Shown in pieces: positions 13,592 to 48,394 of a DNA stretch of 64,000 nucleotides. The position numbers were made by a program, and so were the translations under genes. The first letter of the stretch is position 1; each line of letters starts with the position of its first letter. This DNA is from Rhizobium sp. Root708 (GTDB lineage: Bacteria; Pseudomonadota; Alphaproteobacteria; Rhizobiales; Rhizobiaceae), in NCBI RefSeq assembly GCF_001429725.1, contig NZ_LMHV01000041.1, positions 62,001 to 126,000 of the forward strand, in the 5' to 3' direction. The notes beneath the pieces are model-generated. The model was not told the DNA's origin and did no database searches. It saw nothing but the letters and a program-made list of their open reading frames with translations.

Positions 13592-16500
13592 TCAGGTAGT
13601 CCCGATCATCGTTATCGGTGCGTAGATCTCGATAATCTGCAACGGAACGTCCGCCTGCGCCTGGCTTCCGAAGACTTTTGTGGGATCGACGGGTTCGTCA
13701 TTTTCGGCCGGGAAGAACTGTCCCCATGGATCTTCGAGCCACGTCTGGATATCGGCCTGCTGCAGGTTCGCACGCCCGGATCGAATGGTGAGAATTCTGC
13801 CGATAAGCGCCTGTCCCGCAAGATCTCGACCGGCTTGAAGCGCAAACGGCTGCAAGCCGACGGCTTTCTTATTGCCGTCGTAGCCTTCAGGAGAGTGAAA
13901 CAGTCCGACAAATATCTCGTCCGGTTCTCCCGACACGCTCGTGATGCTTTTCGTCACCAGCAGCAAATTGAAAAGCCCCTGGTTTTCGCACCCCCTGACG
14001 CGCTCCGAAAACAGTCCATTCGTGCCGAGCCAGCCCCATTGCGTACCGCCTGCGCTCAACAGCAGATGCTTGGTGTCGTCAGAATCTACCCGCATCGCGA
14101 GGCCTGCAAGCGAGACTCGGCTCGACCGCACAAGCGCTGCCATGTTCGGCATGAACTGCGCCCAGCGCCCTTCCGTCGGTTCCGATATCTGAAGCGATCG
14201 GCTCACCCTTATTTCCCCGGCGCGGGCTCCCTCCACCGTCCGCGTGAGATTGACAGTCAGTTCTGTCGTCGCAGGATCGGCATCCGCCAACTCGTCGGGC
14301 TGCAGCGCCTCAAACCATTTGGTTTGCCAGGCAAGCATCCAATGCCCGCCCGAGGGCTTGACCAACAGGAAGATGTCGAACCAGGCGTAGGATGCTGCTC
14401 CGCCCTCGCGCTCGATCTCCGAAACTCGGCGGACGGCGACAACGCGGAGATCGAATACCGGGACTGAAAGCGCGAACATCTTGTTCGCAGCACCGTCGAT
14501 CGTGAGGCTGCACTTGCCGCCCGCCCATGTGGCAGCGACGGAAAATGCCCTGCTGATCTGTTTCGTCCCGTCTTTCTGCCGGCGAGAAAGGTTTCCGGCG
14601 CAGGTGAACGTCGCCGTTGCCGTCTTTTTCTCCGGCACGGCATCGTGTTGGGTGATCGAAATCTGGGGCGATATGCACTTTGCCGGCGTCAATAACACGT
14701 CCTGCCAGTAGCCTTCCGTTGCCTCGGCAAGCACGAGCCGGCGGAATGAGAGCTTGGCCATCCACCAGGCATCCGGATCTTCATGGGTAAACTCCGGTGG
14801 GCTGATGACGAACGAGCTGTTGAGAAACAATCCGGTTGCGGTTCCGGTGTCGAAGCTGTGGCCGAGCGGCCCCGCGACGGTCAGCGGCGCGACGTTTCGC
14901 AACTCGTCATGGCTCCTCGGCGTTTTCTTTTCCGCTGGCGATGCTGAACTCAGACCATAGGCTCGAACCAGAGGATCCGGCCCCATCTCGACCGCACTCG
15001 CGCTGATCGAAGCACCGTTCTCGCGGAACTTGGTCCGCTGTGCGATGTCGACACCGCCGAGCATCCAATCGCCCAGCCCAGAATGCTCGAACCAAGCCCC
15101 GTCGACCACTGCCAGGACCCCGGCAACCGGAGATGCCTCATCACCTTCCGCCAGAGCGCGCGTCAAGGGAAGAACCGCCCTGACAGCCGGCGGCAGCAGC
15201 TCTCTCGTGCTGCGGGCCGGACGAAGCATTCGGTACCACGGCGTCGACCACCCGCTGGCGCTTTCCCAACGCGCCTTGACCGGCAGCACCGGCGCGCCAA
15301 CCGCACGATAGGCGGCTGCGTAGCGCGAATGCGCCGTGGCGGCAAAGCGCAGATATCGCGTGCTCTCGCGGCGACCTGTCGAGTTGAGCGTGATCCGGAT
15401 TGGAAGTGTTTTTGCGGTCGACGATCCGATCGTTTCGATAATGGGCACGGCCGTCGGAGTATCGTCCAACGTTTCGCCCAGCCGTTCGGCAAATCCGGCA
15501 ACATCCCAGAGAAAAGGGTATTCGCTCGGCGACGGCGGAGCTGCCCGCTTGCTTATGTCACCGTCGTACGGGTCGGCTGGCGGCGCCGGTGGAAAACCAT
15601 TGAAGGTTGCTTCCTTCTTGAACGGGAACGGCGGTACTGGCCGCCCTGTCCAGCGCCAGGCCTGCGCCCCGACGGCAATTGAACCGATTGCATCCATTTT
15701 CGCAGACGTTGACCGTGTGAAATCCAGTCGGAAGTCACCCTCCCGCTCATCTGGCGAGCCGCCACCGCTCACGATGCTCCCGGAAATCCGTTGCGCGATC
15801 TCAGCTGGCTCCGGCAGATGCCTGGAAGCCGCCTCAACGGCAAACTCATGCAGACTGAACAAACGGTAGTGCCGTCCGTCGGTCGGATCGACGACATCAA
15901 CATCGCCGACCGATGCTTCCCGGACAACCTTGTCGAAGCGGCGCTCACCGGCTGGATCGACCTTACCGGAAAACCGTTCCGTCCTGACCGCCGCGAAGAG
16001 CTGCACCACAACGACATCACCCGATGCGACCGCGACTGTTCTGCTGCCACTGTCGAAAGCGGTTCCAGCGTTCCGCTGGACGATACAAGTCAGGTTGATC
16101 GATGGTCGGCTGGCAAAGGGATCCTGAGCAGTCGTATCCGCATCCCAGTTCCAGCCCCACGGTACGAATACCGGCGCAAAGGATGCGCTAGAATTGGCCA
16201 CAAGCGCTCCATCCCGTCGCACGCGCCGCACTGAAATCGCGAGCGCATCCACGGCGGGATCCTGAATGACAAGTTCCTTCCTGATCTCTTCAGACCTGGC
16301 CTTGAGGGCACCGGTGTCGGCCCGCCGCCGTTGTTGCTCCAACTCGTGGAGCTCGGCTGTCAACGCGGCATGCCGCGTTCGGACGGCCTTTCGGAAATCC
16401 CGCAACTTGAGCTTCTCGGCGCTATTCTGACCAAGCAAGGCCTCGTCAAGCGCAATCCAGCGGTCGAAGTCCTCGATAGGCGTGACCGGCGGCCCGATCG

Positions 16501-19375
16501 TGAGCGTCAGTTTCCCCGCGGTCTCGTTGAACGGATCGCCATCGTCGTTCGAAAGCAGGAGAGCAGTCTTCATCTTCAGCGGTCGGCTCCCAGTCGAAGT
16601 CGATGTGTTCCATGGCTCGACGGCAATCGTCGGCACCGAAATCTCTTCCGCGATCGGCTTCACATCCTTTCCAGGCAGTAAGGGATGAAATGCTCCTCCA
16701 CCCGCTGCGACAGGATCGACGCGGAGCGATCCAATCCCGGTTCGTCGCAGATAGGTAAAGCGCCGGATCGCTTCAGGCGGCGGCGAAAAATGCTCCTCGC
16801 CGAGCTTCGACGGATCGAGCAGGGCAGGAAAATCGTTGTTTCGGATCTCGATCGGTAGACCGCCCTGATTGGAGATACCGAAGGGAGCGACCTCGTAGGT
16901 CCCGCCGTAGGCCAGAAACGGCAGCAGCGTTTCAGCCGGCGGCTTTTCCTGCACGCGCGGCTGCACCTGGCGGATGATGCGTGGCAGCGGCGCTTCACCC
17001 GAAGGCTGGTCGTCGGGCTTCATGGCTCCCACCGAGTCACCAATCACCGGCCTGTTCTCATAAGGAAGGATTGCCTGCGGAGCGCGTCCGACATAGCCGA
17101 TCGGCAGTGCCGAAAGCACCGTCGGCGGAGCGTTCTTGAACTCCAGCGACTTAGGTCCCGCACCATAGCCGGCGTCAGGATTGATCTCCGCAAATCCCGC
17201 CGTCAGACAGCGCCAGTCCTCGGCGGGGGTCGAGCGGCGCATCATCATCCCGTACCCAGCCATATCGTCGTTCAGGTCGGTCGTGCTTTGCGCCGCCACG
17301 ACAAGACGATCGACCTGAAGCATCACGGGATGTGCATCCGCCGCCAGACTGCCCGATAGCAACGTGTCACCATCGGTATCGACTGCCGGCTGCGGGAACC
17401 AATCACCCCTCTGCGCTCTGAGTATGGCGTCGATCCCGGTTGCGATCACCTCCCGCGCGCCGGCTGGAAGCTTGCCGATCCGGCCATGATCTGCCTCGTA
17501 TCGAGCCTCCAGCGCGGCCATTCCGCTGGCGTCGCTCTCGCAGAGTGTCCCGAAAAGGCTCGATATAACGGAGGCTCTAATGCTTCCGCGGTCCCCATCA
17601 CTGTCGGCTCCGCAGAGAATATCCACGTCGGTCTGATCCGGCGCTCCCGCGTTTCGCCAAATCCCCTCTGGATCGGTCCATGCAAGGTCGATGTTGGAAG
17701 CCTTCAATATCCTGACAACGTTGAAACCCTGTTCAAAAAGAGAACCAAAGGCCTTCTCTGTGGCAGAGAGCCACGGTCGCAAACTCTCCTGCGCGGAAAC
17801 AGCATCTCGCCAGAGGGCAATCTGGATCGCCGCCGCGTTGGCCGCCGTGATTGCTCCGTCGACGACCTTGCGCAGCAACGCCGGGTCAAACGCCCCCGGT
17901 TGATTGACGTTGTCAACCGTGGCGCCGGCCAGCGCCCTTGCAAACTCGACCCCATCCTTCGGCATGCCCAAAGCCGGTCCCAACACCGAAGCGAGAATAT
18001 CGAACCACCGGCCAAGCTGAGCCGCCTGATCGGGCGTCTTCAGACGAAAAGCGTTGCGGAAGATACGATCCGCATTGGCCACCGCGGTCGCAAGTGCCTC
18101 CGTATCCTTCAGGCGCACATTATGCGGCACCTCCTCATTGACCTGCCCGATGATTGCCGCATGCGCAGGCGACCCGTTCGGCCCGGTCACCAGCTTCGTA
18201 TCCCCCACATGCGGTGGATCCAATGCGATGCAGCCCGGGCCTATGATATCGCGAAGCGCTATCAGGACGGCCTCCGACAGAAGCGCGGCACCTTTTCGCT
18301 TGTCGCCGCCGGAAATGGCGTGGGCGATCGGCGCATCCTGCGTGGCCGCGTCGCTTTCGATCGCGCCGACGAGCAACTCCGCCAGGCTAAATGCCTCCGA
18401 CAATTTTGCGCGCAGTCTCGCCATGGCATCATCGAAAGCCACGCCTTTTCTCGGATCCGACGCGTCGCCGGTATGGGTTCTGCGCACCCAGAACGTATCG
18501 CGATCCAGAAAGCTGGTATCGCTGCTCCCGGATGACCGTGGATCCGCGGCACGGCAGATCGCCTCGATTGGCAAGCCGTTGAAGGTCGTCGCGTAGGGTA
18601 TCGTCGCGACGACACCAGCCGGCGTGGTCTCCCAGACAATCTTCGAGGGATCACTGACATCTGGCTCGAAGACCGTGCTGCTTTTGCGCGGCTTCAGGCG
18701 AGGAGCGGCAACCAGCAAAGTGCGCTCGCCCGGCTGAACGTTAGGCAGGCTGCGCAGGCGGGTGAACCGGACCAGATTAAGGCGCCCGTGGGGAATCGGG
18801 GCCGCCATCGAGGCGAGGCCAGCCAAAAAGGCCTCGTATCGAAACAGCGTCTTGCCGTCGTCAATCTCGTCGAGCCGCTTGCGATGGTTGCTATCGTCCA
18901 ACCCCGCGAGCACGAAGGGAAGCGGATCTGAAAAGCTATTCGTGCGATCCGGTCCGGCGAGATCGCGCAGGGCTGTGTAGAGAAGCCAGCGCCAGCTTTG
19001 ATCGCCGAGCTCGAAATTCGATTTTCCGGTCTCGTTGCTCGCGGGGAGCAACAATTCCTGCTCGTCCGAGGCGACGACGTTTCCGCTCGGAAGGCCGACC
19101 GATGTGGCGGTCGCGCAGAAGGACGAAAAGCCGAGTTCACCACCAATCCACGGGAAAAGCGGGCCGGCATCCTCTCCCAGGATATCGAGGTAGTCATCGA
19201 GCCCTTGGTCCGGCGATGAGGGAAGCGGCGTAGCACCCGCGCGCTTGAAAAGGTCGATTTTTGCTGGATCGTCCCCGGGAGACAGGCGAAGGCCGGCGCC
19301 GGACAGGCGGACCCCGAAGATATTCTGGCCGCCGCCCGGCGCTGCGACGAGATCACATAGAAGAACGATTTTCAT
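13592..19375 (-). CDS. Giant protein of unknown function (1927 aa), unit member C
   Basis: I do not recognise this protein. The frame continues upstream to 19537, but the ATG at 19375, seven bases after the stop of the preceding giant gene and with GAGGG before it, gives a clean start MKIVLLCDLVAAPGGGQ. The protein is 1927 residues long. It has no convincing signal peptide or membrane helix and no Walker A, protease or glycosidase motif that I can see. Most of it looks beta-rich and tryptophan/proline-bearing. One short coiled coil occurs near residues 985-1040 (ELHELEQQRRRADTGALKAR). Three other segments are recognisable by eye only as repeated hydrophobic strands. It is the last gene of a three-gene unit and ends 159 bases before panC. 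A structural or surface-assembly partner of the 2157-residue protein is an inference from context only. Confidence 0.85.
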   Translation of the reverse strand: MKIVLLCDLVAAPGGGQNIFGVRLSGAGLRLSPGDDPAKIDLFKRAGATPLPSSPDQGLDDYLDILGEDAGPLFPWIGGELGFSSFCATATSVGLPSGNVVASDEQELLLPASNETGKSNFELGDQSWRWLLYTALRDLAGPDRTNSFSDPLPFVLAGLDDSNHRKRLDEIDDGKTLFRYEAFLAGLASMAAPIPHGRLNLVRFTRLRSLPNVQPGERTLLVAAPRLKPRKSSTVFEPDVSDPSKIVWETTPAGVVATIPYATTFNGLPIEAICRAADPRSSGSSDTSFLDRDTFWVRRTHTGDASDPRKGVAFDDAMARLRAKLSEAFSLAELLVGAIESDAATQDAPIAHAISGGDKRKGAALLSEAVLIALRDIIGPGCIALDPPHVGDTKLVTGPNGSPAHAAIIGQVNEEVPHNVRLKDTEALATAVANADRIFRNAFRLKTPDQAAQLGRWFDILASVLGPALGMPKDGVEFARALAGATVDNVNQPGAFDPALLRKVVDGAITAANAAAIQIALWRDAVSAQESLRPWLSATEKAFGSLFEQGFNVVRILKASNIDLAWTDPEGIWRNAGAPDQTDVDILCGADSDGDRGSIRASVISSLFGTLCESDASGMAALEARYEADHGRIGKLPAGAREVIATGIDAILRAQRGDWFPQPAVDTDGDTLLSGSLAADAHPVMLQVDRLVVAAQSTTDLNDDMAGYGMMMRRSTPAEDWRCLTAGFAEINPDAGYGAGPKSLEFKNAPPTVLSALPIGYVGRAPQAILPYENRPVIGDSVGAMKPDDQPSGEAPLPRIIRQVQPRVQEKPPAETLLPFLAYGGTYEVAPFGISNQGGLPIEIRNNDFPALLDPSKLGEEHFSPPPEAIRRFTYLRRTGIGSLRVDPVAAGGGAFHPLLPGKDVKPIAEEISVPTIAVEPWNTSTSTGSRPLKMKTALLLSNDDGDPFNETAGKLTLTIGPPVTPIEDFDRWIALDEALLGQNSAEKLKLRDFRKAVRTRHAALTAELHELEQQRRRADTGALKARSEEIRKELVIQDPAVDALAISVRRVRRDGALVANSSASFAPVFVPWGWNWDADTTAQDPFASRPSINLTCIVQRNAGTAFDSGSRTVAVASGDVVVVQLFAAVRTERFSGKVDPAGERRFDKVVREASVGDVDVVDPTDGRHYRLFSLHEFAVEAASRHLPEPAEIAQRISGSIVSGGGSPDEREGDFRLDFTRSTSAKMDAIGSIAVGAQAWRWTGRPVPPFPFKKEATFNGFPPAPPADPYDGDISKRAAPPSPSEYPFLWDVAGFAERLGETLDDTPTAVPIIETIGSSTAKTLPIRITLNSTGRRESTRYLRFAATAHSRYAAAYRAVGAPVLPVKARWESASGWSTPWYRMLRPARSTRELLPPAVRAVLPLTRALAEGDEASPVAGVLAVVDGAWFEHSGLGDWMLGGVDIAQRTKFRENGASISASAVEMGPDPLVRAYGLSSASPAEKKTPRSHDELRNVAPLTVAGPLGHSFDTGTATGLFLNSSFVISPPEFTHEDPDAWWMAKLSFRRLVLAEATEGYWQDVLLTPAKCISPQISITQHDAVPEKKTATATFTCAGNLSRRQKDGTKQISRAFSVAATWAGGKCSLTIDGAANKMFALSVPVFDLRVVAVRRVSEIEREGGAASYAWFDIFLLVKPSGGHWMLAWQTKWFEALQPDELADADPATTELTVNLTRTVEGARAGEIRVSRSLQISEPTEGRWAQFMPNMAALVRSSRVSLAGLAMRVDSDDTKHLLLSAGGTQWGWLGTNGLFSERVRGCENQGLFNLLLVTKSITSVSGEPDEIFVGLFHSPEGYDGNKKAVGLQPFALQAGRDLAGQALIGRILTIRSGRANLQQADIQTWLEDPWGQFFPAENDEPVDPTKVFGSQAQADVPLQIIEIYAPITMIGTT

Positions 19376-19382
19376 GGAACCC

Positions 19383-22300
19383 TCACGCGAAGTTGTCGAG
19401 ATGGTCGCCGGAGGCGGCCGCGGCGTTTTTCTGAGCGCCGGAGAGGTAGTAGGTGATCGCTTGGCGAACCTTGATCTCGCAGCACCAGCAGATTTTGAAG
19501 CTGACCTCCAGGGTGCCCCGAGCCACCGCGCTGCCATCGTCGCGGTACACCAGTTCCAGAAGCATGGAGAGGCCGATATTGAAGCGCCCGAGGATCACGA
19601 CACCGCCGCGAACCAGGAAGATGACGGCAATCGAAAAGTTCTTGCCGCCGGATCCGTCCGTCTCGAACTCCGCATAGGCGCCGAGCATCGCATAGACGAA
19701 GCCGCTGCACGGTCCGAAGGCGAAATCCATGCCGACGCCGGCGGTGAGACCGATCGACACGGCGCTCGAGAGCTTTCCGCTGGTCGGAAAATACCGTGCC
19801 CGCGCCTCGAACCATCCCCCGCCGAGGAAGACCCAAACGCGCAACACGAAGGGTTCGCTCTTGCGCCCAAGCGCCATGCTGGTCGCCAGGGCGAATTCAC
19901 CCGCCCTGCCCCCGTCTTTCTTCGATGTCACCAATTCAAATGAGGTGGCGAAGCGCATGCCGGTTGCCGAGAAGGCGCCAAACGACAGCGGGGGTAGCGG
20001 CAGTTCGATACGCGCCGAAATACCGGCCGGAACTCCGTTCTCCTCCAGCATTTCGAGGAAGAATCCCGAGTTTGGGTCGCTGAATGACTTGATGAGGTCA
20101 GACAGAAACTTGATCGAATTATCGAGCCGCACCCGGCGCGGATCGATGTCGACATCGAGGCCTTTGCCGTCCTCAAAGAAGATACGCGTCTCTTCAAGCG
20201 TGACGAGCGGATGGCCGCTGAAGGCCAGCTCCCAATCGCCCGTAATCTCTGCCTTCGTGGTCCGCTTGGAAAGTCCCTGCGGGTCGATTGCGAAATCGGC
20301 AAGTGCCGCGAACGTGCCTGAGACCATCGACAAATTGAGTGGACCGAATTCGAATATTTCGGATCGATCCCCAAGCGATGTGCTAGCCTCGGCTTTCGCC
20401 CAACCGCTCAGACTGGCCTTGTCGAAACCGTGGCTGACCTTGATCTTGTCACTGGCGAACGCCGGCAGGTGGAAGTTCTTGAACAAGCCGTCCAGCTTGA
20501 GGCCCGCGAGATCGGGAAAGATCTGGCTGAAATCGAAGTTCTCCAATCCCTTCGGCGTGAAACGGTCGAGAATTTCGTCAGTCGGCAAGCGAATGCCCAA
20601 CGCCTTCAGGTCGTCGTCGAGCCGGTTCATCAGCGCGACGACAGGCGACGTGCGGATCGCATCACGCGCGTCATCGAAGAAATAGGCAATGCGATCCCGA
20701 TTGAAACTCAGATTTGGAAGGATCGGGGAAGCCCCTGCGGCCCGCACAAGCGCCAGCGTGTCGCTGGGGTTCTGGAAGGAAGGCGCATTCGAGAGCCGCT
20801 TATATCCTTCCTCCAACGCGCGGATATTCTCTGCGACGGATGGCGGGATTTGCTGTCGCAAGCCGTTGGCGATAGCCTTCGCCCCGTCTTCAAGTTTCTC
20901 CGCCGCCTCCTTGATCGCCCCGCCGTCCCGCCGAATCACGGAGATCCCGGCATCGATCGCCTGAATGAGGCCGACCTCCAGCCCGGTGATCGTCGTCGTC
21001 GCAGCGACAGCAGCCCCGTCGATCACATCGCCGATGGCCTTCTCTTCGTCGGCCATCGACCGGCCGACGCCATCGAGCAAACCGCCGAGGTCGTTCATTG
21101 TGCTCTTCGTTGCTGCCGAGATCGCAGGCTTCAACGCAACGGCTTGGTCCGTCAGCTTCCGAAGCTCGCTCTGGACATGGCTGCGAAGATCATCCGCCGG
21201 CTTCCGGCATATTTCGTAAAGCACCACCAGCCAGTCTCGACAAACATCATCGAGGCCGGTCGTGAATGCCCCGAGACTCGCGGCGGCTTGCTGTCGATAA
21301 CCGTCCACGGGAGTATTCAGCGCCGTCATGGCGCTCCCGGCGGCCTCGATGACATGGACAGCTTGACGGAGCGCCTCCCCGACCGCGGCGCGCACACCGC
21401 TCAGGTTCGCCTCAGCCTTCTGCACCTCGGAGAAAGCAGTGGAATGGACCTCGTCGAGGGCTGCTCGCAACGCGCCCAGCAACACGCTCAACGAAACATG
21501 GTCCGGTCCAACCGGGAAGATCTTCTCGTTCATCAAGACCGGCGGAAGACCGCGCCGCGCGTTGTCCAGAACGCCTTCGATGATGCCCATCGTGCGGCGA
21601 TGAAATGCATCATACGCAGACAGAACCTGCCCGGCATCCGGCAGCGATGCGACGGTTCCTTCAACGTCGGCGGCCGCATCCGCAACGGTGCGCGCCGCAT
21701 CCGACATCCCCCGAAGCAACTCGGCCACGCCGCGATCGAGTTGCTCGAAGCCGGCCGAAAGTCGATTGATCCCGGTCAGCAGTTGCGACCGTGGCAAAGC
21801 AAGCGCCTGTTCGATCTGTCGGGCGACATTCTCGGCATTGTTCGGCGTCGTGCCCTCGAAAAGATATGGATCCGCCTGCAGTTCGCCCAGCGCCTTGATC
21901 AATGCATCCAGCCGGAGGCTTACCGTTTCCTCGATGGCTTTCGTCTCCTTGCTTTGAAAGCTCACGGCCTCGTCGGTCCATTTCGATCGAGCGGCATCCA
22001 AGGCTGCCTTCGCCTCGGAAGCCGCCTCGCCGATCGTCTGTCGTGCGGCAGCGGCCCGCTGGCGGACCTCGCCTTTCAACGCGTCAAGCCGGGCGATGGC
22101 AGCCTCAACCGGATCGCCCGCCGCCGACGCGCTCCACAAGCCGGCGACGATACCTCGGGCAGTCGAGATGGCCTCGTTGAGCCGCGCTTCCAGGACCCGC
22201 GCATCATCGGCCATCGTCTGTAGATGCGCTCTCAACGCGATCGCCTGAGCAGGCCCGCCACCGGCTCCGGTCGGCTTCGATCGCATCATCGAGACGGTTT

Positions 22301-25300
22301 CGACCACGGCACCAATCGGCTCACCCGAGGCTCTTGCGGCGATCAGATTCGTCGGCGCGCTGCCGCTATCGACGTCGAACGTGCCGCGATCGAACATCGG
22401 ATCGCGCATACGCTCATCCGGCTGCCGCCCGTCGGGATCTGCCCGGTCGATGACCGGCCGCCCTGTCGGTGAAGGCGCTGGCGCGTTGACAAAATCCACA
22501 TCCGCGACCGGCAGCCACTGATCGGGAAGATCGCCATCCTCCTCTCGTACCGAGGTAAAGAAGACGAGTTGGCTCGGATCGCTAAGGCGCGAAAGAACGG
22601 CCGCTGACGCGCCCGTATTCGCGCTCGACAGCCGAAGCCGGATATCCGGCTTGGGAAAGAGATTCCGGTCCGCATCGCTCCTCCAGAGGGGCACAATCCA
22701 GCCGGCCTCGATATCGCGGCCCCAGCTGCTTTTCACTGGGATACGGCGGGTGCGAAACAGACAGGCTTCGACGAAACCCCGTGCCTTCTGTCCGCCGCTC
22801 TTTTCGGGATAAGCGCGATCCGGCTCCAGAAGCTCCACATACTCCTGAACTTTGCGTACGACGGGACGACCAAGATGCTGCCCGTCCTGCTCCTCGGCAA
22901 ACTGATCCGGCGGCAAGACCGTCCGCTCGTAGACGATGACGTGCTTTGCGATATTCCAGAACACACCGATGCGACCGATCCGCTCCAGCGTGTAGGTATC
23001 AGTTCGTCCAACAACGGTGTTGGAGACGATCCGCGTCTTCCCATTCGCAAAGAAGGCGCGCATGAAGCCCGAGCCGCCAAGCGCGGTGAAACTCGGCTCG
23101 ATGATCTGCCCGCGTGTGCTCGCCGGCTTTCTCATCACCTCCTGAAAGATGGTCTTCGACTCGAAGCCGCGCGTGGCTCCGCCCCCCAGATTGTTGGATT
23201 GGCTTTGCGGATCCCAAGGATCGGGATCGACTTCGGCATTGGCCCGGAGTTCGAAGGCGACCTTGTCATCCACCGACAACGGGCCCTCGGTTCCTTCACG
23301 ATAGATCCCGAACTGAGCGAGGCGCGTTTCGTAGACCTTCGAAAAGCCGGCCGCGAGGTCACGCTGGCGATCATAAAGCTCCGCTTCCACGAGCGGCTGC
23401 CGGTTCGTACCGGTCGGAGAACGGACTATCCCCTTCGGCCGCGCCGGAAGCGGCGTGCGCAGCCCCCCGATGCGCGCGCCGATCTCCGCTAGCCGCAGGC
23501 CTGACGATGTCAACCGGCTCGCAAGACCATAGAGGAACTCGAACCTGGCGGTCGCCATCCCCGCGCCTGGAGCCCGGTCGCCGGCAGAACCGAGAACCCG
23601 GCGCAGGTTCCACGGCGCCTCCGCATATTGCTGCTTGAAATACGAGGACTGCAGCGACAGGCGCGAAAGCGTCCCCAGACGGTAATCGACGGTAATCTCA
23701 GCGCCCGTGGGCGAGATCGGTGGCCACGGAACGCCCTTCTCGAAGGCTTCCCCTGTCGCCTGGGGCGGGAAGGACAGGTTGAAGCCAGCCGTTACGCCGG
23801 CGATCTCCCATTTGCCGCCGCCGAACTCCGAGGTTTCCCAGTTCGCGATCTCACCGTCGCTGTCTTCGGATTGCGCGAGATCGAGCCCGAATGTGGGGAC
23901 GTTGGCCATTGCTACGGTCAATGGCTCGGCGTCGATGACGATCGTCCGATCTCCAGATTTCACCTCACCCGTCGAAGTGTCCTTGCTGAGTGGCTTTCGA
24001 CGCAGCGCAAGCGCCAGGCGACGATTGCTGCCGGTTGCCGTCACTTCCTCTCCGGTCAGGAAAAAGGGCGTCCGTAGCGATTCCTTTTCTGAGGCTGCCT
24101 TCTGTCGATCGACCAGCACCAGCGGCACATCGCGTGACAAGTTGTTCGCTATCCGCTTTTCGCGCGCGACCTTTGAAAACTCCGGATCCGAGGTGTCCGC
24201 ATCACGGCGCCTGAGCGGCTCGAGCACCGCGTCGAACGCGCGCCCGCTATCCGGCGGCGCATCCTGCGCGCCCGGGCGGACGTCAGCCAGATCGAACCGG
24301 TCGATACGAGCGACAATTCTCGGGATTGCTTCGCCGGGATAAGGAAGCCGCGCACGTCCCGCCTTCCCTTTTGGATCGCGCTTAGCGGTCGCATAATGCG
24401 GCAGCGCCGGGTCCGCGGGATCAAACGTCACCGCAAGAGCCATCTCCAGGGGACCGGCCTGCGCTTCGGCATGGCCTGGCACGTCCAAATCCAGCGCTCC
24501 GAATCGGAGGGAGGAGGACGGTTCCTTGCCCGCATCGGCTTCAGCAACGATCTCGACCTTGATTTCCGGTATGCTCGACGATGCAGGCGAAGTGTCGAAC
24601 CAGCAGAAGGTGTCTTTTATCGCTTCACGCTCGATGCGGACCTTTACCCGGCGGCGAACGGGCAGACCATCATGCGTGACCAGGCCTGGAAAGACCGCAT
24701 CGGCAATGAAAACAGCAGCCGCCTGCGTGGGGCGAACGGCAGCCAGGACGATATCGCCGACATCATCGCTACGAGCGTCGGGCTGCACCATGTCGAACAG
24801 CGCATCGAACTCTCCGCTCTCTCCCTTGGAGTTGCCGATATTCTGCAGCAAGGGGACGAAAGACGTTTCACGAGCATCGTCGACTGTTCTGAGTGCCGAA
24901 AGATAGGGTTGTGCGACGCGCTCGTTCCAGAGATCGGCAAACAGGTGCGGTGACAGCGATGTCATCGCGACGTAGGAATGGAGAGCGCTATCTACCTTCT
25001 TGGGATCGTCGAGGTCCGGCTGATTGAATACGTCGGGTATCAGGTGGAAATCGACCGGTTTTGCGATCTCGACCGCAACGCGGGAAGCATTGCGGCTGTC
25101 GACAACGATATTCACCGAACCAGGTCCGGCGCCTGTCGGCTCGACCTGCACCCGACCGCCGAATGTCAAAAAGTCGTTGTCGCCGTCGGGGCCTTTCCGG
25201 CGTATTCCGACGGGCCTGAGACCAATGGCGCGCGGTTGCTTGTATTTGCCGTCCGTCTTGAAAGGAATCTGCTTCACATCCTTGAAGGCGACGCCCGCGG

Positions 25301-25856
25301 TCCGACCAAGCATTCGCGCCAGCAACGGGTAGGCATCGGGCGAAATCGCAACCGGCGCATTTGTTGCGAATACGGCGCGTTCGAACCTGTCGGAGGGTGA
25401 AGGATTGGAAAGCTGCTTCAGCGAAAAATAGCCGCTGATATCGGCGTCATCGCCGGGGAAGGCGTCCCCTGCATAGGCAGACGCGTAATTTGTGAAGACG
25501 TTGAGCGAGCCATCCGCATTGAACATGCCAGTCTGCGACAGTGTCCATCTCAACACACACGAAAGGCCGGGACCACTGGGTAACCTGGCCGTCTGAAACG
25601 ACCTCAGCATCGCGAGGGCGATCTGCTGCTTGTCGGCATAATAGTGAAATCGACCGCCGGGCGTGCGAAGACTGAACCGCAACTTCGTTTCGTCGCCGTC
25701 GAAGAGTTCGATGTAGTGAAAGGTGCTGTCGGCACCGAGGACATTGTCGAACACCAGTTTGTTTTTGGCATCCAGCCCGAATTGCATCCGGCTGCGCTGA
25801 CCATCTGCGCCGATGGCATATAGGTGGCCTGCCAGCCGCGCGATGACGCCTGCCAT
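19383..25856 (-). CDS. Giant protein of unknown function (2157 aa), unit member B
   Basis: No family recognised. The ATG at 25856 with GAGGG upstream is preferred over an in-frame GTG at 25886. Three zones can be seen. Residues 1 to about 1150 are beta-rich with many short strands (for instance GADSTFHYIELFDGDETKL). Residues about 1210-1690 are helical and alanine/glutamate-rich, looking like long coiled coils (DDARVLEARLNEAISTARG and similar). Residues about 1770-2145 form a series of alternating hydrophobic strands with glycine turns, such as FVLRVWVFLGGGWFEARA, that recall beta-barrel or lipid-binding sheets. A cysteine cluster CWCCE lies near the C-terminus. There is no signal peptide. 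It is seven bases upstream of the 1927-residue gene and 93 bases downstream of the 107-residue gene. Confidence 0.85.
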   Translation of the reverse strand: MAGVIARLAGHLYAIGADGQRSRMQFGLDAKNKLVFDNVLGADSTFHYIELFDGDETKLRFSLRTPGGRFHYYADKQQIALAMLRSFQTARLPSGPGLSCVLRWTLSQTGMFNADGSLNVFTNYASAYAGDAFPGDDADISGYFSLKQLSNPSPSDRFERAVFATNAPVAISPDAYPLLARMLGRTAGVAFKDVKQIPFKTDGKYKQPRAIGLRPVGIRRKGPDGDNDFLTFGGRVQVEPTGAGPGSVNIVVDSRNASRVAVEIAKPVDFHLIPDVFNQPDLDDPKKVDSALHSYVAMTSLSPHLFADLWNERVAQPYLSALRTVDDARETSFVPLLQNIGNSKGESGEFDALFDMVQPDARSDDVGDIVLAAVRPTQAAAVFIADAVFPGLVTHDGLPVRRRVKVRIEREAIKDTFCWFDTSPASSSIPEIKVEIVAEADAGKEPSSSLRFGALDLDVPGHAEAQAGPLEMALAVTFDPADPALPHYATAKRDPKGKAGRARLPYPGEAIPRIVARIDRFDLADVRPGAQDAPPDSGRAFDAVLEPLRRRDADTSDPEFSKVAREKRIANNLSRDVPLVLVDRQKAASEKESLRTPFFLTGEEVTATGSNRRLALALRRKPLSKDTSTGEVKSGDRTIVIDAEPLTVAMANVPTFGLDLAQSEDSDGEIANWETSEFGGGKWEIAGVTAGFNLSFPPQATGEAFEKGVPWPPISPTGAEITVDYRLGTLSRLSLQSSYFKQQYAEAPWNLRRVLGSAGDRAPGAGMATARFEFLYGLASRLTSSGLRLAEIGARIGGLRTPLPARPKGIVRSPTGTNRQPLVEAELYDRQRDLAAGFSKVYETRLAQFGIYREGTEGPLSVDDKVAFELRANAEVDPDPWDPQSQSNNLGGGATRGFESKTIFQEVMRKPASTRGQIIEPSFTALGGSGFMRAFFANGKTRIVSNTVVGRTDTYTLERIGRIGVFWNIAKHVIVYERTVLPPDQFAEEQDGQHLGRPVVRKVQEYVELLEPDRAYPEKSGGQKARGFVEACLFRTRRIPVKSSWGRDIEAGWIVPLWRSDADRNLFPKPDIRLRLSSANTGASAAVLSRLSDPSQLVFFTSVREEDGDLPDQWLPVADVDFVNAPAPSPTGRPVIDRADPDGRQPDERMRDPMFDRGTFDVDSGSAPTNLIAARASGEPIGAVVETVSMMRSKPTGAGGGPAQAIALRAHLQTMADDARVLEARLNEAISTARGIVAGLWSASAAGDPVEAAIARLDALKGEVRQRAAAARQTIGEAASEAKAALDAARSKWTDEAVSFQSKETKAIEETVSLRLDALIKALGELQADPYLFEGTTPNNAENVARQIEQALALPRSQLLTGINRLSAGFEQLDRGVAELLRGMSDAARTVADAAADVEGTVASLPDAGQVLSAYDAFHRRTMGIIEGVLDNARRGLPPVLMNEKIFPVGPDHVSLSVLLGALRAALDEVHSTAFSEVQKAEANLSGVRAAVGEALRQAVHVIEAAGSAMTALNTPVDGYRQQAAASLGAFTTGLDDVCRDWLVVLYEICRKPADDLRSHVQSELRKLTDQAVALKPAISAATKSTMNDLGGLLDGVGRSMADEEKAIGDVIDGAAVAATTTITGLEVGLIQAIDAGISVIRRDGGAIKEAAEKLEDGAKAIANGLRQQIPPSVAENIRALEEGYKRLSNAPSFQNPSDTLALVRAAGASPILPNLSFNRDRIAYFFDDARDAIRTSPVVALMNRLDDDLKALGIRLPTDEILDRFTPKGLENFDFSQIFPDLAGLKLDGLFKNFHLPAFASDKIKVSHGFDKASLSGWAKAEASTSLGDRSEIFEFGPLNLSMVSGTFAALADFAIDPQGLSKRTTKAEITGDWELAFSGHPLVTLEETRIFFEDGKGLDVDIDPRRVRLDNSIKFLSDLIKSFSDPNSGFFLEMLEENGVPAGISARIELPLPPLSFGAFSATGMRFATSFELVTSKKDGGRAGEFALATSMALGRKSEPFVLRVWVFLGGGWFEARARYFPTSGKLSSAVSIGLTAGVGMDFAFGPCSGFVYAMLGAYAEFETDGSGGKNFSIAVIFLVRGGVVILGRFNIGLSMLLELVYRDDGSAVARGTLEVSFKICWCCEIKVRQAITYYLSGAQKNAAAASGDHLDNFA

Positions 25857-25949
25857 ATCGATACCCTCATCGATGGAGTGGAACACCTCGCCTCGCGAGG
25901 CCGTTTCAGAAATCAGTACGGAGCAAGCTCTCGCCTGAACGAACCCGCG

Positions 25950-26273
25950 TCAGGAACCGAGGAACCATTGAAACGGCTCGTCACCAAAGGTCTTCCCGAA
26001 CCCTGGGAGCAGGATTTCGCCGTCACCAGTGCTGTTGCCCTCAACATAACCCTTGAGAAGCATGACCTTGGTGTCACTCTTGTCGTAGAGCCTCATGTTG
26101 TTGGAGTTTCCGGGACTGCCGAGTATCCAGTTTTCCCACTGTCCGCTGCTCTCCAGCAAGGCTGAGGTCGGATCGGCTTCCAAGACCTTCCAATCGCCCT
26201 TTGTGACGAGCGTGCCGCCAGCGATCGTCAGGACAATATGCTTACGCGGCCTCACCAAGCGCAATGTTGGCAT
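25950..26273 (-). CDS. Small protein of unknown function (107 aa), unit member A
   Basis: The first gene of the giant-protein unit. The ATG at 26273 with GGAGGGGG upstream gives 107 residues beginning MPTLRLVRPRKHIV; the frame is open further back, but without a comparable ribosome site. The sequence looks entirely beta-stranded, with regular tryptophans (GDWKVLEAD, GQWENWILGS, FQWFLGS) and several Gly/Asn turns. This suggests a small beta-sandwich or trefoil-like fold. I cannot assign it to a family. It probably functions with the two giant proteins, given shared strand and a 93-base gap. Confidence 0.75.
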   Translation of the reverse strand: MPTLRLVRPRKHIVLTIAGGTLVTKGDWKVLEADPTSALLESSGQWENWILGSPGNSNNMRLYDKSDTKVMLLKGYVEGNSTGDGEILLPGFGKTFGDEPFQWFLGS

Positions 26274-43816: not shown

Positions 43817-44734
43817 TCAGTGACCATCGACCGGCACGGCCTCGGTCGGGACAGTCCCCAACAGGTTCTTGCGATGGAAGATGAACAATCCCGCCACGAC
43901 GATGATCGTTCCTCCCACAATCACGTACATATCAGGAATGTCGCCGAAGAAAGCGTACCCGAATGCAATCGCCCATATCAACAGGGTGTATTGCAGCGGC
44001 GCCAGCAATGAAGCGGGCGCAAGCTTCAGTGAGCGCGTGATCAGCAGATGCGCGCAGGATGCGACGACGCCGAGCGCCAGCATGCTGCCGAGCTCGAGCG
44101 GCGTGGTCTGCTGCCATGATCCGATCGACAGGACGACGCCGACGACAAGCGCGGCCAGCATCTGCCAGGTTACCAGCGTCGTGTCGCTGGTGTTGCGCAG
44201 ATGCCGGTTGAGCACCAGGGACATCGAGAAGGACAGGCTGCCGATAATGCCGAAAAGCGATGGTAACGACAGCATCGCCGAAGATGGGCGAAGCGCGATG
44301 ACCACACCGCAGAAGCCGAAGAGGACAGCGAGCCAGCGGCGCCAGCCGATACGCTCGTTCAGGAAGAAGTGCGACAGCGCGGCGACATAGATCGGTCCAG
44401 CCATGTAGAACGTCATGACGTCAGCGAGCGGGAGGTAGGCAACGGCAGCGTAGAAGAGGACAACATCAAGCGTGGCGAACAGGACGCGCAGGACCTGCAG
44501 GCCCTTTCGCTCGACCCGAAACAGCTTTTCCGGCCCCTGCTTCACCAGCAGCGGCCCGAGTACGATGAAGCAGCCGAGCGAACGGATAAGCAGCACCTGC
44601 CCGAGCGAAAAATTCGTGACCAACCATTTGCCCATGGCATCGTTCAGCGCGAAGAGAAGGTCTCCAAGCAGCATCAGGACGACCCCGACCAGAACGGCGT
44701 TTTTGACGCCTGATGCCGTGGGTTGAAGCTGCAT
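43817..44734 (-). CDS. EamA/DMT-family inner-membrane transporter
   Basis: A 305-residue permease of the drug/metabolite transporter superfamily, with about ten hydrophobic helices in two EamA repeats (first GVVLMLLGDLLFALNDAMGK to GVVIALRPSSA; second LFGIIGSLSFSMSLVLNRHL to GTIIVVAGLFIFHRKN). Relatives export amino acids or S-adenosylmethionine; the substrate here is unknown. The start at 44734 is supported by the position of the first helix. It is read in the same direction as the SDR gene, 60 bases upstream of it. Confidence 0.88.
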   Translation of the reverse strand: MQLQPTASGVKNAVLVGVVLMLLGDLLFALNDAMGKWLVTNFSLGQVLLIRSLGCFIVLGPLLVKQGPEKLFRVERKGLQVLRVLFATLDVVLFYAAVAYLPLADVMTFYMAGPIYVAALSHFFLNERIGWRRWLAVLFGFCGVVIALRPSSAMLSLPSLFGIIGSLSFSMSLVLNRHLRNTSDTTLVTWQMLAALVVGVVLSIGSWQQTTPLELGSMLALGVVASCAHLLITRSLKLAPASLLAPLQYTLLIWAIAFGYAFFGDIPDMYVIVGGTIIVVAGLFIFHRKNLLGTVPTEAVPVDGH

Positions 44735-44818
44735 GTCGGATTCCTTTTGTCGGCCGCCGCGGCGCTGCGGCTGCCGGGCCGTCGCTGATATCGCTCAGCG
44801 TGTCAAGTCACGCGAACG

Positions 44819-45703
44819 CTATATGCCCTTGCCACGCAACATTTCGATGATGGCCGAAAAATCCCGCCCTCCGTTACCCTGCTTCTCGAAGAGAGCATAG
44901 AGCTGCGCCGCCTCCGCCCCGAGCGGCGTCGAGGCACCCGTGGAGAGCGCTGCTTCCTGGGAGAGACGGAGATCCTTCAGCATGAGAGCGGCGGCAAAAC
45001 CCGGCTTGTAGTCATTGTTGGCCGGCGAGGCGGGTACCGGCCCCGGCACCGGGCAATAGGTGCTGACAGACCAGCACTGCCCCGAGGATGTCGACGCGAC
45101 GTCGAAGAGCGCCTGATGCGACAGACCAAGCCTTTCACCGAGCGCGAATGCTTCGCACACCCCGATCATCGATATGCCTAGGATCATGTTGTTGCAGATC
45201 TTCGCCGCCTGCCCTGCGCCCGCCTCACCGCAATGGATGATCTTCTTTCCCATGGCTTCGAGCACCGGTCGTGCCTTTTCGAATGCCTCATCGGAACCGC
45301 CGGCCATGAATGTCAACGTCCCCGCCGACGCTCCGCCGGTGCCGCCGGAAACCGGAGCGTCGAGAGACAAACATCCGGCTGTCCTGGCCAGCTCATGAGC
45401 TTTTCGCGCGCTGTCGACATCAATGGTCGAGCAATCGATTACCAGGGTGCCGCTCGCGACTGAGGCCAGGATATCAGGCCAAGCGGTCAAGACGTGCTTT
45501 CCCTGGGGTAGCATCGTCACGACGATCTCCGCCCCCGAGACGGCTTGGCTGATGTGGCTCGCGGGCGTCACGCCATTTCCTTCCGCGGCCTGCAGAACAG
45601 TTGCGGCCAGATCGAACCCGGTCACCTCGTGGCCAGCCTTGACGAGATTGGCGGCCATCGGCCCGCCCATATTGCCAAGTCCGATAAATGCGATCCGTGC
45701 CAT
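44819..45703 (-). CDS. mmsB: 3-hydroxyisobutyrate dehydrogenase (MmsB)
   Basis: MmsB oxidises 3-hydroxyisobutyrate to methylmalonate semialdehyde in valine breakdown with NAD. The 294-residue protein has the NAD motif IAFIGLGNMGGPMAANLVKAG, the beta-hydroxyacid dehydrogenase catalytic block DAPVSGGTGGASAGTLTFM, and the lysine region GAGQAAKICNNMILGISMIG. The position just after a branched-chain amino-acid importer makes valine catabolism a sensible role. The start at 45703 follows the decayed GMC remnant by only nine bases. Confidence 0.94.
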   Translation of the reverse strand: MARIAFIGLGNMGGPMAANLVKAGHEVTGFDLAATVLQAAEGNGVTPASHISQAVSGAEIVVTMLPQGKHVLTAWPDILASVASGTLVIDCSTIDVDSARKAHELARTAGCLSLDAPVSGGTGGASAGTLTFMAGGSDEAFEKARPVLEAMGKKIIHCGEAGAGQAAKICNNMILGISMIGVCEAFALGERLGLSHQALFDVASTSSGQCWSVSTYCPVPGPVPASPANNDYKPGFAAALMLKDLRLSQEAALSTGASTPLGAEAAQLYALFEKQGNGGRDFSAIIEMLRGKGI

Positions 45704-45712
45704 GCCATTCTC

Positions 45713-45808
45713 CTATTTAAGACGAGGATCGACCACACTGTCGCGATCCGCGCCCATCCGGCATGTGCCGACCGGGTGAAAGATCGTCGTGCCTATATCT
45801 CCTGCCGA
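45713..45808 (-). pseudogene. Remnant of a GMC-family FAD oxidoreductase (31 codons)
   Basis: Directly after the livM stop and in the same frame, the minus strand reads [20 protein letters not shown] followed by [11 protein letters not shown] and a TAG stop. The HPVGTCRMG-x5-VVDP pattern is the C-terminal signature of GMC oxidoreductases such as choline or alcohol dehydrogenases (the histidine is the catalytic base). The other 500 or so residues, including the FAD-binding N-terminus and the final DASIMP region, are gone. It is probably the scar of a deletion that joined livM to mmsB. Confidence 0.85.
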
Positions 45809-46798
45809 TCAACGACGGTAGACAAAGCCGAGTTTCCGTCCGAGGCGCGACGCGTAGAATTCACCGATGATGCCGCGGCGGAAGATCAGCACGCAAACCA
45901 TGAACACGATGCCCGTGATGATCGTCACCGGGAATTCCGACGTTGCGAGGTAGTTTTCCAGCGTGACGACCAGGCCCGCGCCAAACAGCGGGCCGATCAG
46001 CGTGCCGATACCGCCAAGCAGCGTCATGAGGATCACCTCGCCCGACATCTGCCAGGCGACATCGGTCAAGGTCGCGAACTGGAAGACTAGCGACTTCACG
46101 GCACCCGCCAGCCCCGCCAGGGCTGCGGACATCACGAAGGCGCCGAGCTTGTAGCGCGCGACGGAGTAGCCAAGCGATATTGCTCGCTGCTCGTTCTCGC
46201 GGATCGATTTCAGGATCATTCCGAACGGCGAGTTTATGAAGCGCCAGATAATCACGATGCCGACGACGAAGACGGCCAGCACGAAGTAATACATGTTGGT
46301 CGAACTGTTGAGGTCGATGAAGCCGAACAGGTGGCCGCGTGGCACGGACTGGATACCGTCCTCGCCATGCGTGAACTTCGACTGCAGGCAGAAGAAGAAG
46401 AACATCTGCGACAGAGCCAATGTGATCATCGCGAAATAGATGCCCTGGCGGCGGATCGCGAAAAAACCCATCACGAGACCGAGAACGGCGGCACCGGCCA
46501 CGCCGACGAGAATGCCAAGCTCCGGCGAGAGCCCCCATTCCTTCACGGCATGCGCCGTAAAGTAGGCGGCGCCGCCGAAGAACGTCGCATGGCCGAACGA
46601 GAGAAGGCCGGTATAGCCAAGCAGCAGGTTGAAGGCACAGGCAAACAGCGCGAAGCACAGGAGCTTCATCAGGAAGATCGGATAGAAAAAGAATGGCGCC
46701 AGCAACAGGAGCAGCAGGCCGATGATCAGGAAGGCCGCCTGCACCGACAGCGCGGTCCGGCTCTTCTCGGCCCTGATGGTTTCGCTGATCTCAGTCAT
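45809..46798 (-). CDS. livM: Branched-chain amino-acid ABC transporter permease LivM
   Basis: A 329-residue LivM-type permease with about nine hydrophobic segments. The hallmark is FNLLLGYTGLLSFGHATFFG, followed by the coupling loop SPFGMILKSIRENEQRAISLGYS (read in parts as GMILKSIRENEQRA). The terminal part holds GGIGTLIGPLFGAGLV. The ATG at 46798 or a GTG at 46804 overlapping the livH stop may be used. It is the last intact gene of the SBP-livGFHM unit. Confidence 0.94.
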   Translation of the reverse strand: MTEISETIRAEKSRTALSVQAAFLIIGLLLLLLAPFFFYPIFLMKLLCFALFACAFNLLLGYTGLLSFGHATFFGGAAYFTAHAVKEWGLSPELGILVGVAGAAVLGLVMGFFAIRRQGIYFAMITLALSQMFFFFCLQSKFTHGEDGIQSVPRGHLFGFIDLNSSTNMYYFVLAVFVVGIVIIWRFINSPFGMILKSIRENEQRAISLGYSVARYKLGAFVMSAALAGLAGAVKSLVFQFATLTDVAWQMSGEVILMTLLGGIGTLIGPLFGAGLVVTLENYLATSEFPVTIITGIVFMVCVLIFRRGIIGEFYASRLGRKLGFVYRR

Positions 46799-46800
46799 CG

Positions 46801-47688
46801 TCACGCATCCCGGCCGAAGAGGCCCGCGGGCCTGATGAGGAGAACAATCGCCATGATGACAAAGATCACGATGTTGGACGCCTCCGGATAAAAGACCTTG
46901 GTCAGGCCTTCGGCAATGCCAAGGAAATAACCGGTGATGATTGCTCCCATGATCGAGCCCATCCCGCCGACCACGACGACGGCGAACACAACGATGATCA
47001 TACTGGAGCCCATCAGCGGCGATACCTGATAGATCGGCGCCGCCAGCACACCGGCGAAGGCCGCAAGGCCGGCCCCAAGCGCGTAGGTCAACGTCAGCAG
47101 AACCGGCACGTTGACGCCGAAAGCCTGGACGAGCGTCGCGTTTTCGGTGGCGGCCCTGAGATAAGCGCCGAGCTTCGTCTTCTCGATCAGAAGCCAGGTA
47201 CCGAGGCAGACCACCAATGAGACGACGACCACCCAGCCGCGATAGATCGGCAGGAACATGAAGCCGACGTTCACGGCACCGGTGAGGGCCGCGGGCGGCG
47301 CATAGGGTTGGCCTGAAGAACCGTAGAGATAGCGGAAGGTGCCTTCGACGGCGAGCGCCAGACCGAAGGTGAAGAGCAGGCCATAGAGCGGATCGAGGTC
47401 ATAAAGCCGGCGCAGGAAAAGCCGTTCGATCACGGCACCCGCCAGTCCGACAATGATCGGTGCCAGGATCAGCGACGGCCAATAGCCGATGCCGGCATAG
47501 GCAAGCAGTAGATAGGCAGCAAAAGCACCGAGCATGTATTGCGCGCCATGCGCGAAGTTGATCACCCGCAAGAGGCCGAAGATGATGGCAAGTCCGAGAC
47601 TCAAGAGGGCATAGAAGGAGCCGTTGATCAGGCCGATCAGCAGCTGACCCATGAATGCCTGCAGGGGAATGCCGAAGATCATCGTCAT
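46801..47688 (-). CDS. livH: Branched-chain amino-acid ABC transporter permease LivH
   Basis: A 295-residue LivH-type permease with the signature INGSFYALLSLGLAIIFGLL and RVINFAHGAQYMLGAFAAY near the N-terminus, the coupling segment TKLGAYLRAATENATLVQAF, and VVVGGMGSIMGAIITGYFLG near the C-terminus. The ATG at 47688 follows the livF stop by four bases, with GGGAGTG in the end of livF; the frame upstream to 47745 overlaps livF and is not used. Adjacent livM overlaps or nearly touches its stop. Confidence 0.94.
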   Translation of the reverse strand: MTMIFGIPLQAFMGQLLIGLINGSFYALLSLGLAIIFGLLRVINFAHGAQYMLGAFAAYLLLAYAGIGYWPSLILAPIIVGLAGAVIERLFLRRLYDLDPLYGLLFTFGLALAVEGTFRYLYGSSGQPYAPPAALTGAVNVGFMFLPIYRGWVVVVSLVVCLGTWLLIEKTKLGAYLRAATENATLVQAFGVNVPVLLTLTYALGAGLAAFAGVLAAPIYQVSPLMGSSMIIVVFAVVVVGGMGSIMGAIITGYFLGIAEGLTKVFYPEASNIVIFVIMAIVLLIRPAGLFGRDA

Positions 47689-47692
47689 CAGG

Positions 47693-48394
47693 TCACACTC
47701 CCAGAACCTTGTGCAGCGTACCCATCCGCTCCGGCAATTCGCCAACCGGGAATTCCGACACCATCTGCCCGTGATCCATAAGATAGAACCGATCGGCGAT
47801 CCGGCTAGCGAAGCGGAAATTCTGTTCGACGAGCAGGATCGTCATGCCGCGTTGCTTCAATTGCTTCAGCACCTCGCCGATGCGTTGGACGATAACGGGC
47901 GCCAGTCCCTCGGTCGGCTCGTCGAGCAGAAGCATGCGAACACCGGTGCGCAGGATGCGGGCGATCGCCAGCATCTGCTGCTCGCCACCCGACAGTTTCG
48001 TGCCCGGACTGTTGCGACGTTCGTAGAGGTTCGGGAACAGCTCGTATATCTCGTCGGTGGCCATCCCGCCCGAGGCCACTACGGGCGGGAGCAGCAGGTT
48101 TTCGGACACCGTCAACGTCGAGAATATGCCTCTTTCCTCCGGTACGAAGCCGATGCCGCGATGCGCGGTCTTGTGCAGCGGCACCTGCATCATGTCCTCG
48201 CCGGCGAAGGTCAGCTTGCCCTTTCTGGAGCGGACAATGCCGGTGATGGTGCGCAGGGTCGTCGTCTTGCCGACGCCGTTGCGGCCAAGGATGGTGACCG
48301 TCTCGCCTTCTCCGACCCGCATGTCGACACCATGCAGGATATGGCTTTCGCCATACCAGGCATTCAGCCCCTGGACCTCCAGAAGTGCCGCCAT
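47693..48394 (-). CDS. livF: Branched-chain amino-acid ABC transporter ATPase LivF
   Basis: A 233-residue ABC ATPase with Walker A ILGRNGVGKTTTLRTI, the LivF-typical loop GIGFVPEERGIFSTLTVSEN, signature KLSGGEQQMLAIARIL, Walker B MLLLDEPTEGLAP and H-loop LLVEQNFRFA. The start ATG shares one base with the livG stop (TGATG); a GTG one codon earlier is possible. It pairs with LivG as the heterodimeric motor. Confidence 0.95.
   Translation of the reverse strand: MAALLEVQGLNAWYGESHILHGVDMRVGEGETVTILGRNGVGKTTTLRTITGIVRSRKGKLTFAGEDMMQVPLHKTAHRGIGFVPEERGIFSTLTVSENLLLPPVVASGGMATDEIYELFPNLYERRNSPGTKLSGGEQQMLAIARILRTGVRMLLLDEPTEGLAPVIVQRIGEVLKQLKQRGMTILLVEQNFRFASRIADRFYLMDHGQMVSEFPVGELPERMGTLHKVLGV

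Follow-up and report, generated by a model that had tools for sequence, protein, structure and literature searches.

What do two adjacent giant genes of Rhizobium sp. Root708 encode, and do they and a small neighbor form a unit? The question is raised by the 64,000-nucleotide stretch of DNA analyzed here (the window), which sits in a 6.29-Mb genome and resembles parts of roughly 1.95-Mb plasmids, namely, one of Rhizobium sp. BG6 and an R. grahamii record. An earlier note had proposed a three-gene unit at this place, and mapping of the open reading frames showed all three to be intact and on the minus strand. We call the giant proteins A and B. The genes and the recognizable parts of their products are as follows.

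25950 to 26273, minus strand: gene of the small protein, 107 aa (ATG at 26273, stop codon ending at 25950), beta-like by eye, an optional accessory of the A-B cassette
19383 to 25856, minus strand: gene of giant A, 2157 aa (ATG at 25856; 2167 aa if translation began at an in-frame GTG at 25886)
13592 to 19375, minus strand: gene of giant B, 1927 aa (ATG at 19375), without a Tat motif and with little helical-like composition
22167 to 24209, minus strand: central conserved domain of A (residues 560 to 1240 in the 2167-aa numbering), with many invariant charged residues
20820 to 22168, minus strand, borders approximate: helical-like region of A, whose length differs between clades; all six clade 2 proteins examined have little or none of it
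19386 to 20819, minus strand: C-terminal domain of A, detectable in all three clades and predicted to be a long-stranded beta-meander, with its first 123 residues unreliably modeled
19443 to 20072, minus strand: barrel-like part of the C-terminal domain of A (residues 1939 to 2148), with a structural match to autotransporter beta-domains
14708 to 15349, minus strand, borders approximate: well-conserved core of B (SRYA ... VLPLT ... GPDP), the stretch in which a weak similarity to clade 2 B is detectable

The mapped starts and stops leave 93 bases between the small gene and A and 7 bases between A and B, the spacing that the note had given. An upstream in-frame ATG would yield a B of 1981 aa; the start at 19375 is favored because of its GAGG site and because it is common to the orthologous locus on plasmid pRPC of Rhizobium sp. 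BG6 (L004). Orthologues of the three genes on that plasmid are 88 to 90% identical, with dN/dS ratios of 0.127 for A, 0.155 for B and 0.141 for the small gene (2156, 1927 and 107 codons, respectively). The nearby panB, panC and Tim44 genes have lower ratios (0.04 to 0.06), and all values are far below 1. We conclude that the three genes are genuine and unbroken and that purifying selection maintains them, and the argument that an intact 12 kb speaks for function is strengthened by 12.7 kb of open frame evolving at a dN/dS of 0.13 to 0.16. Elsewhere in the window, positions 44001 to 48000 have a strong AT skew (up to 0.265) and overlap minus-strand genes resembling, by eye, hydrophobic ABC permeases.

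We searched for known relatives of these proteins. A and B of the window matched no Pfam or NCBIfam model at E values up to 1, and in PHROGs A had no match and the best match of B (0.041) was at noise level. PADLOC gave no match for A, B, the small protein, the patatin found beside the pair at L011, or one clade 2 A protein. A profile built from 12 A proteins matched PDB sequences in the helical region, among the best 60 of 217 matches (a tape measure protein at 7.7e-13, apolipoproteins), and a profile of 13 B proteins matched nothing significant there. Searched singly against Pfam, the 12 A proteins matched mostly helical-type models, and the window's own A matched none. Comparison of the A and B profiles revealed no relation between the two giants. 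The conclusion that the unit belongs to no known system is thus upheld by these libraries and by the restriction of the A-profile matches, among those best 60 of 217, to the helical region. The partial texts of the literature consulted contained no recognized description of such a two-giant pair, and the available part of an article on R. grahamii replicons (PMC3898782) contains neither "panC" nor "hypothetical protein." The two-giant system is apparently undescribed.

Giant B lies directly downstream of A on the same strand in all 33 nonredundant loci that we collected with A, in hosts among the Alpha- and Betaproteobacteria and Streptomyces. The set consists of the window, L005, L006, L007, L011 to L018, L020, L028, L030, L043 and L045; L008, L042, L050 to L055 and L057; and L039, L040, L041, L047, L056, L058 and L061/L062. 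Left out of it were L004 and L010, both of the window's clade, L019 (a fragment), G208, whose A is spread over two contigs, and further plasmid matches. At L028 and L030, B extends past the end of the contig. Across 15 pairs of the window's clade, the distances between A proteins and between B proteins correlate with an r of 0.94, a value reached in none of 10,000 permutations (maximum, 0.61). A and B are co-inherited as a strict pair. The earlier proposal that the two giants belong together is supported by both results, and unlinked genes, which would have spoken against it, were not seen among the loci found by searching with A.

The 33 loci fall into three clades, whose names and borders are our own. 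Clade 1, that of the window, has 17 loci, with A proteins of 2068 to 2530 aa where unbroken. Clade 2 has 9 loci, including ones in Rhizobium, Diaphorobacter, Cupriavidus metallidurans CH34 and Streptomyces, with A proteins of approximately 1000 to 1600 aa. The most distant, clade 3, has 7 loci, including ones in S. meliloti LMB1 and Ruegeria THAF33, with A proteins of 2275 to 3311 aa. Profile comparison linked the C-terminal domain of clade 1 A with clade 2 (probability 99.7%, E 1e-26) and clade 3 (99.7%, E 5.7e-27), and the A proteins of clades 2 and 3 with each other (100%). For B, clades 2 and 3 are firmly related (100%, E 8.6e-64), clade 1 is weakly linked to clade 2 (64%, E 6.5e-5; 18% against pooled clades 2 and 3), and the comparison of clade 1 with clade 3 gave no link (5%). 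An N-terminal B motif that had seemed by eye to be common to the clades (LP..G...RLS..SP) was not borne out by profile comparison (probability 0.1%).

The pair is rare. As a protein query, A of the window found the gene in 1 of 37 genomes of its genus, its own, and in 2 of 61 overall. For the order, the profile of the C-terminal domain was positive in 8 of 397 genomes, and for the phylum in 5 of 398 (own genome counted each time). In the class, the full A profile was positive in 5 of 385 genomes, two of them (G348 and G393) by the helical part alone, and these two were set aside as relatives. Among 72,556 plasmid records, 7 matched the window's A and 16 a distant A, and none of 50,697 phage records matched any of three A queries. 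Scans of genomes and viral contigs added 10 loci and 3 viral (IMG/VR) contigs, all three of which carry the pair. In the A tree, the Rhizobium copies (window, L005 and L017) sit on separate branches, which together with the patchy occurrence suggests transfer between lineages. The tree and the patchiness thus point to A-B being a mobile, traveling two-gene cassette. We found no empty insertion site: in records with both flanks but no A-B, the flanks are not adjacent (approximately 0.3 Mb apart in CC1099). Rarity, patchiness and frequent residence on plasmids would also fit a selfish or selectively neutral cargo of mobile elements with no specific host role. We consider this very improbable, given 12.7 kb kept open under purifying selection, the strict co-inheritance and the recurrence of partner genes. 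On a viral contig carrying the pair (L029), a large serine recombinase gene, recognized by eye, lies 1.7 kb downstream of B (L029:20895-22235), which might indicate where a mobile element ends.

The small protein adjoins A-B in the R. grahamii clade. It was found in 2 of 297 genomes of the family and in two plasmid records, each belonging to the clade of the window. In another genus of the Rhizobiaceae (G1403, locus L061), a protein 52% identical to it is encoded 0.5 kb downstream of the B gene of a Tat-type clade 3 pair, with a gene for a 121-aa protein with a signal-like N terminus in between. Beside the remaining pairs (a set without G1403), no homologue was found at a blastp E value of 1e-3. 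Because it recurs beside a distant pair in another genus, the small protein is best regarded as an optional part of the system, not a chance neighbor, and the partnership proposed for it earlier gains a second case.

The predicted structure of A gives hints as to its function. The helical middle described earlier was confirmed by a helical-like composition from approximately residue 1250 onward and by profile matches to helical proteins covering approximately positions 1290 to 1850. The central domain was modeled by AlphaFold with a pLDDT of 70.5 and a pTM of 0.67 and matched no PDB fold (best Foldseek E, 0.028; Z at most 4.9), which does not make the fold new. The alternating hydrophobic strands noted at the C terminus are present and are predicted to be long beta-strands. 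In a model of the last 478 residues (pLDDT, 63.8; pTM, 0.43; first 123 residues unreliable), strands are up to 20 residues long, mostly with a pLDDT of 66 to 87 and dips to 54, and many of them have one hydrophobic and one polar face. Foldseek ranked Omp32 first (E 5e-4, TM-score 0.2) and P47, which we take to have a TULIP-like lipid-binding fold, second (E 8.8e-4, probability 0.51, TM-score approximately 0.1). A structural aligner placed autotransporter barrels at the top, with 4mee matching model residues 252 to 469 (Z 15.5, 196 residues, 3.7 Å, 6% identity); for models without a clear match, its best Z is usually 7 to 8. We thus propose, with modest confidence, that the C terminus of A consists of long amphipathic beta-strands like those of outer membrane barrels, and the model is barrel-like rather than filament-like.

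The predicted long-stranded antiparallel meander is what A shares with autotransporter and outer membrane barrels such as AIDA-I, EspP and Omp32. It differs from them in the low identity, in the absence of a signal peptide recognizable by eye in the window's A, in its last predicted strand, which ends 19 residues before the end of the chain, and in having relatives in Streptomyces. Streptomyces is not known to have an outer membrane. An ordinary outer membrane barrel is disfavored because some hosts lack that membrane and because signals are missing.

Amphipathic strands and helices might instead bind lipid. A giant carrier of lipids or other hydrophobic ligands, for which phospholipases or patatins would supply or process the lipid, would account for the P47 match, for the apolipoprotein model matches in 7 of the 12 A proteins at E values up to 1 (best, 1.2e-9) and for four lipase-type neighbors of the pair (L011, L017, L050 and L058). 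We nevertheless find it unlikely. Matches to apolipoprotein models are what any amphipathic helix or coiled coil tends to produce, and the window's A has none; furthermore, the TM-score of P47 is very low, clade 2 is nearly devoid of the helical region, and proteases and peptidoglycan enzymes are equally frequent near the pair.

How might such giants leave the cell? A and B of the window have no Tat motif and, by eye, no hydrophobic N-terminal stretch, in line with the lack of signal peptides reported earlier. Other clades differ. Under a strict rule (RR.[FVL]L followed by a hydrophobic stretch, within the first 80 residues), the A proteins with a Tat motif numbered 0 of 16 in clade 1 (window included), 2 of 6 in clade 2 and 6 of 6 in clade 3. 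None of 29 B proteins had one; among 428 other open reading frames of the fetched loci (150 to 949 aa, some surely not genes), 3 were positive. A looser rule gave the same counts for A and was replaced because 49 of 426 control frames were positive. A further A of clade 3, the seventh (L062, 3007 aa), carries the motif ISRRGFLLG close to the N terminus. On the conjugative plasmid pC of S. meliloti LMB1, a 55-aa TatA gene (2.4e-9) lies 49 bases after B (L056:22697-22864).

A hitchhiker route of Tat export is known for PaoABC (PMC4273604). The giants resemble such pairs in that one subunit, A, has a Tat motif and its partner, B, encoded together with it, has none. They differ in that this holds for clades 2 and 3 only, not for the window, in the size of A in clade 3 and in the lack of any cofactor-binding family seen. 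By analogy, B may be exported by riding on A in the Tat-bearing clade.

The neighborhood of the pair offers further clues. An enzyme recognized as degrading peptidoglycan, lipid or protein lies near 12 of the 33 loci; none was recognized at the other 21 among the selected neighbors scanned, nor among 10 neighbors of the window's pair. As chosen neighbors alone were scanned, this count is neither unbiased nor complete. The enzymes are as follows.

Subtilase: L006, L015
Patatin: L011, L017, L050
M23: L013, L043
Lysozyme-M23 and trypsin: L047
Polysaccharide deacetylase: L016, L017
Rv2525c-type glycosidase-like: L028
Astacin: L055
Zinc phospholipase C: L058

Searching 15 genomes for M23, patatin and S8 yielded 209 rows. 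Eight of these rows (7 genes) could be placed no farther than 10 kb from the pair, where 0.73 rows would be expected. The P value for 7 is approximately 1e-5, which is optimistic because the three families were picked after the neighbors had been seen and because one genome (L015) supplies both S8 genes. Patatin alone is weakly enriched (2 against 0.32 expected, P 0.04), and none of the three patatin genes in the genome of the window lies near the pair. The long patatins of L011, L017 and L050 align with each other over approximately 400 plus 120 to 180 residues, beyond the stretch matched by Pfam. Judged by crude hydropathy, all 8 Pfam-supported clade 1 enzymes examined lack a hydrophobic N terminus, as does A itself, and the astacin (L055) and trypsin (L047) beside a Tat-type A have one. 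No clear hydrophobic N terminus was seen, by the same crude measure, on the patatin of L050, the phospholipase C of L058 or the lysozyme-M23 of L047.

Other neighborhoods vary: the pair lies among metabolic genes at L051 and beside conjugation genes at L056. Just upstream of A-B at L017, genes resemble by eye those of an OLD-type ATPase, a TOPRIM-like protein and a helicase of the UvrD type (L017:2962-6293), which would be a Gabija-like arrangement. A second protein family without a Pfam match is common to three neighborhoods (L011:22599-24320, L043:3881-5116 and L016:6066-6974; 25 to 29% identity). Three clade 3 loci share a protein of up to approximately 155 aa at 47 to 61% identity (L058:23522-23983, L041:2469-2939 and L056:7031-7243), whose L058 copy has no Pfam match.

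Patatins, subtilases and SIR2 proteins occur as effectors in known defense systems. The giants might thus be cytoplasmic sensors of phage or foreign DNA that switch on one of these variable effectors, as the patchy distribution would also allow. At L006, the pair is near methyltransferase, AAA and endonuclease genes, and its subtilase matches a PADLOC subtilase model; at L005, a SIR2 gene is located approximately 0.3 kb upstream of A. We regard a defensive role as quite improbable: PADLOC recognized neither giant, nor the small protein, nor the L011 patatin, no nucleotide-binding domain rises above noise (one AAA_13 match at 0.076, in 1 of 12 A proteins), and the Tat motifs of clade 3 and the peptidoglycan-active neighbors (M23, lysozyme and deacetylase) are ill suited to a cytosolic sensor.

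A phage origin was weighed on similar grounds. The statement that the unit does not look like a phage tail stood for the sequences: A and B of the window have no match above noise in PHROGs, and the three A queries matched none of the phage records. However, 2 of the 33 loci adjoin tail-type genes. Immediately upstream of the pair at L012, one gene is of the tape-measure kind (phrog_10574, 1.9e-19) and another is neck-like (phrog_5, 1.1e-9). At L028, which is on a viral contig of 65 kb, the upstream genes include fn3 and Gly-rich ones, probably of the tail-fiber type, and glycosidase-like ones. A gene annotated "phage tail tip lysozyme" is 11 kb away at L005. A and B could thus be structural proteins of phage descent (tail tip, fiber or tape-measure-like), domesticated or carried by prophages; the three viral contigs and the tape-measure resemblance of the helical region, which many helical proteins share, would agree with this. 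Its probability appears low, as no tail gene was recognized beside the other 31 pairs, whose neighbors were scanned in part, and Tat motifs are, to our knowledge, foreign to phage tail proteins. Contractile and phage tail systems resemble the pair in their giant tandem genes, in the signal-less peptidoglycan enzymes beside some copies and in the two prophage-type neighborhoods; the difference is that no tail, sheath, baseplate or spike homologue was recognized in A or B. ABC (Tc) toxin complexes likewise comprise two very large proteins encoded in tandem, and they differ in that the window's A and B have no Pfam match and that no family of such complexes is among the matches listed for the wider set of proteins (25 of 26 for 12 A proteins, 3 of 3 for 13 B proteins).

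Proceeding from these observations to a mechanism, we tentatively propose a giant complex that would be exported or released and would work with interchangeable envelope-attacking enzymes. After folding and assembly of A and B in the cytoplasm, the folded complex of the Tat-bearing clade would exit through the Tat pore, with A leading and B hitchhiking; that of the window's clade, for want of a signal, would work in the cytosol or be freed by lysis. The long helical region of A may form a stalk, and its amphipathic C-terminal meander may touch or enter membranes. Since the small protein and the exchangeable hydrolases would serve as cargo or helpers, the complex would most likely attack or breach cell envelopes and so act in antagonism between bacteria. 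We favor such antagonism, in which the envelope-cutting enzymes can be exchanged, over any other single reading, tentative as it is and short of probable.

Several observations weigh against the antagonism complex. It has no characterized homologue; 21 of the 33 loci, the window included, have no recognized enzyme among the neighbors scanned; at L058 and L047, the phospholipase C and the lysozyme-M23, respectively, show no clear signal beside A proteins that carry a Tat motif; the C-terminal model has a pLDDT of 63.8 and a pTM of 0.43; B of clade 1 is weakly linked to that of clade 2 and unlinked to that of clade 3; and L005 and L006 adjoin defense-type genes. A more specific version, a new modular antagonism machine of two giants that would assemble in the cytosol, exit folded via Tat or lysis, insert its C-terminal beta-barrel into the target membrane and bring exchangeable cutting enzymes along, is rather unlikely.

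The pair represents two families of approximately 1000 to 3300 aa that no library used describes and that are strictly paired across two phyla, with a Tat motif in some members and, once, a private tatA. It also delimits "hypothetical" giants of known strains, Cupriavidus metallidurans CH34 among them. If the proposed route is true, the complex of the Tat clade, with an A of up to 3311 aa, may be an unusually large Tat cargo. Two questions become testable with the pair: what size of folded cargo the Tat pore admits, and whether a weapon that is exported or released by lysis may consist of no more than two giants.
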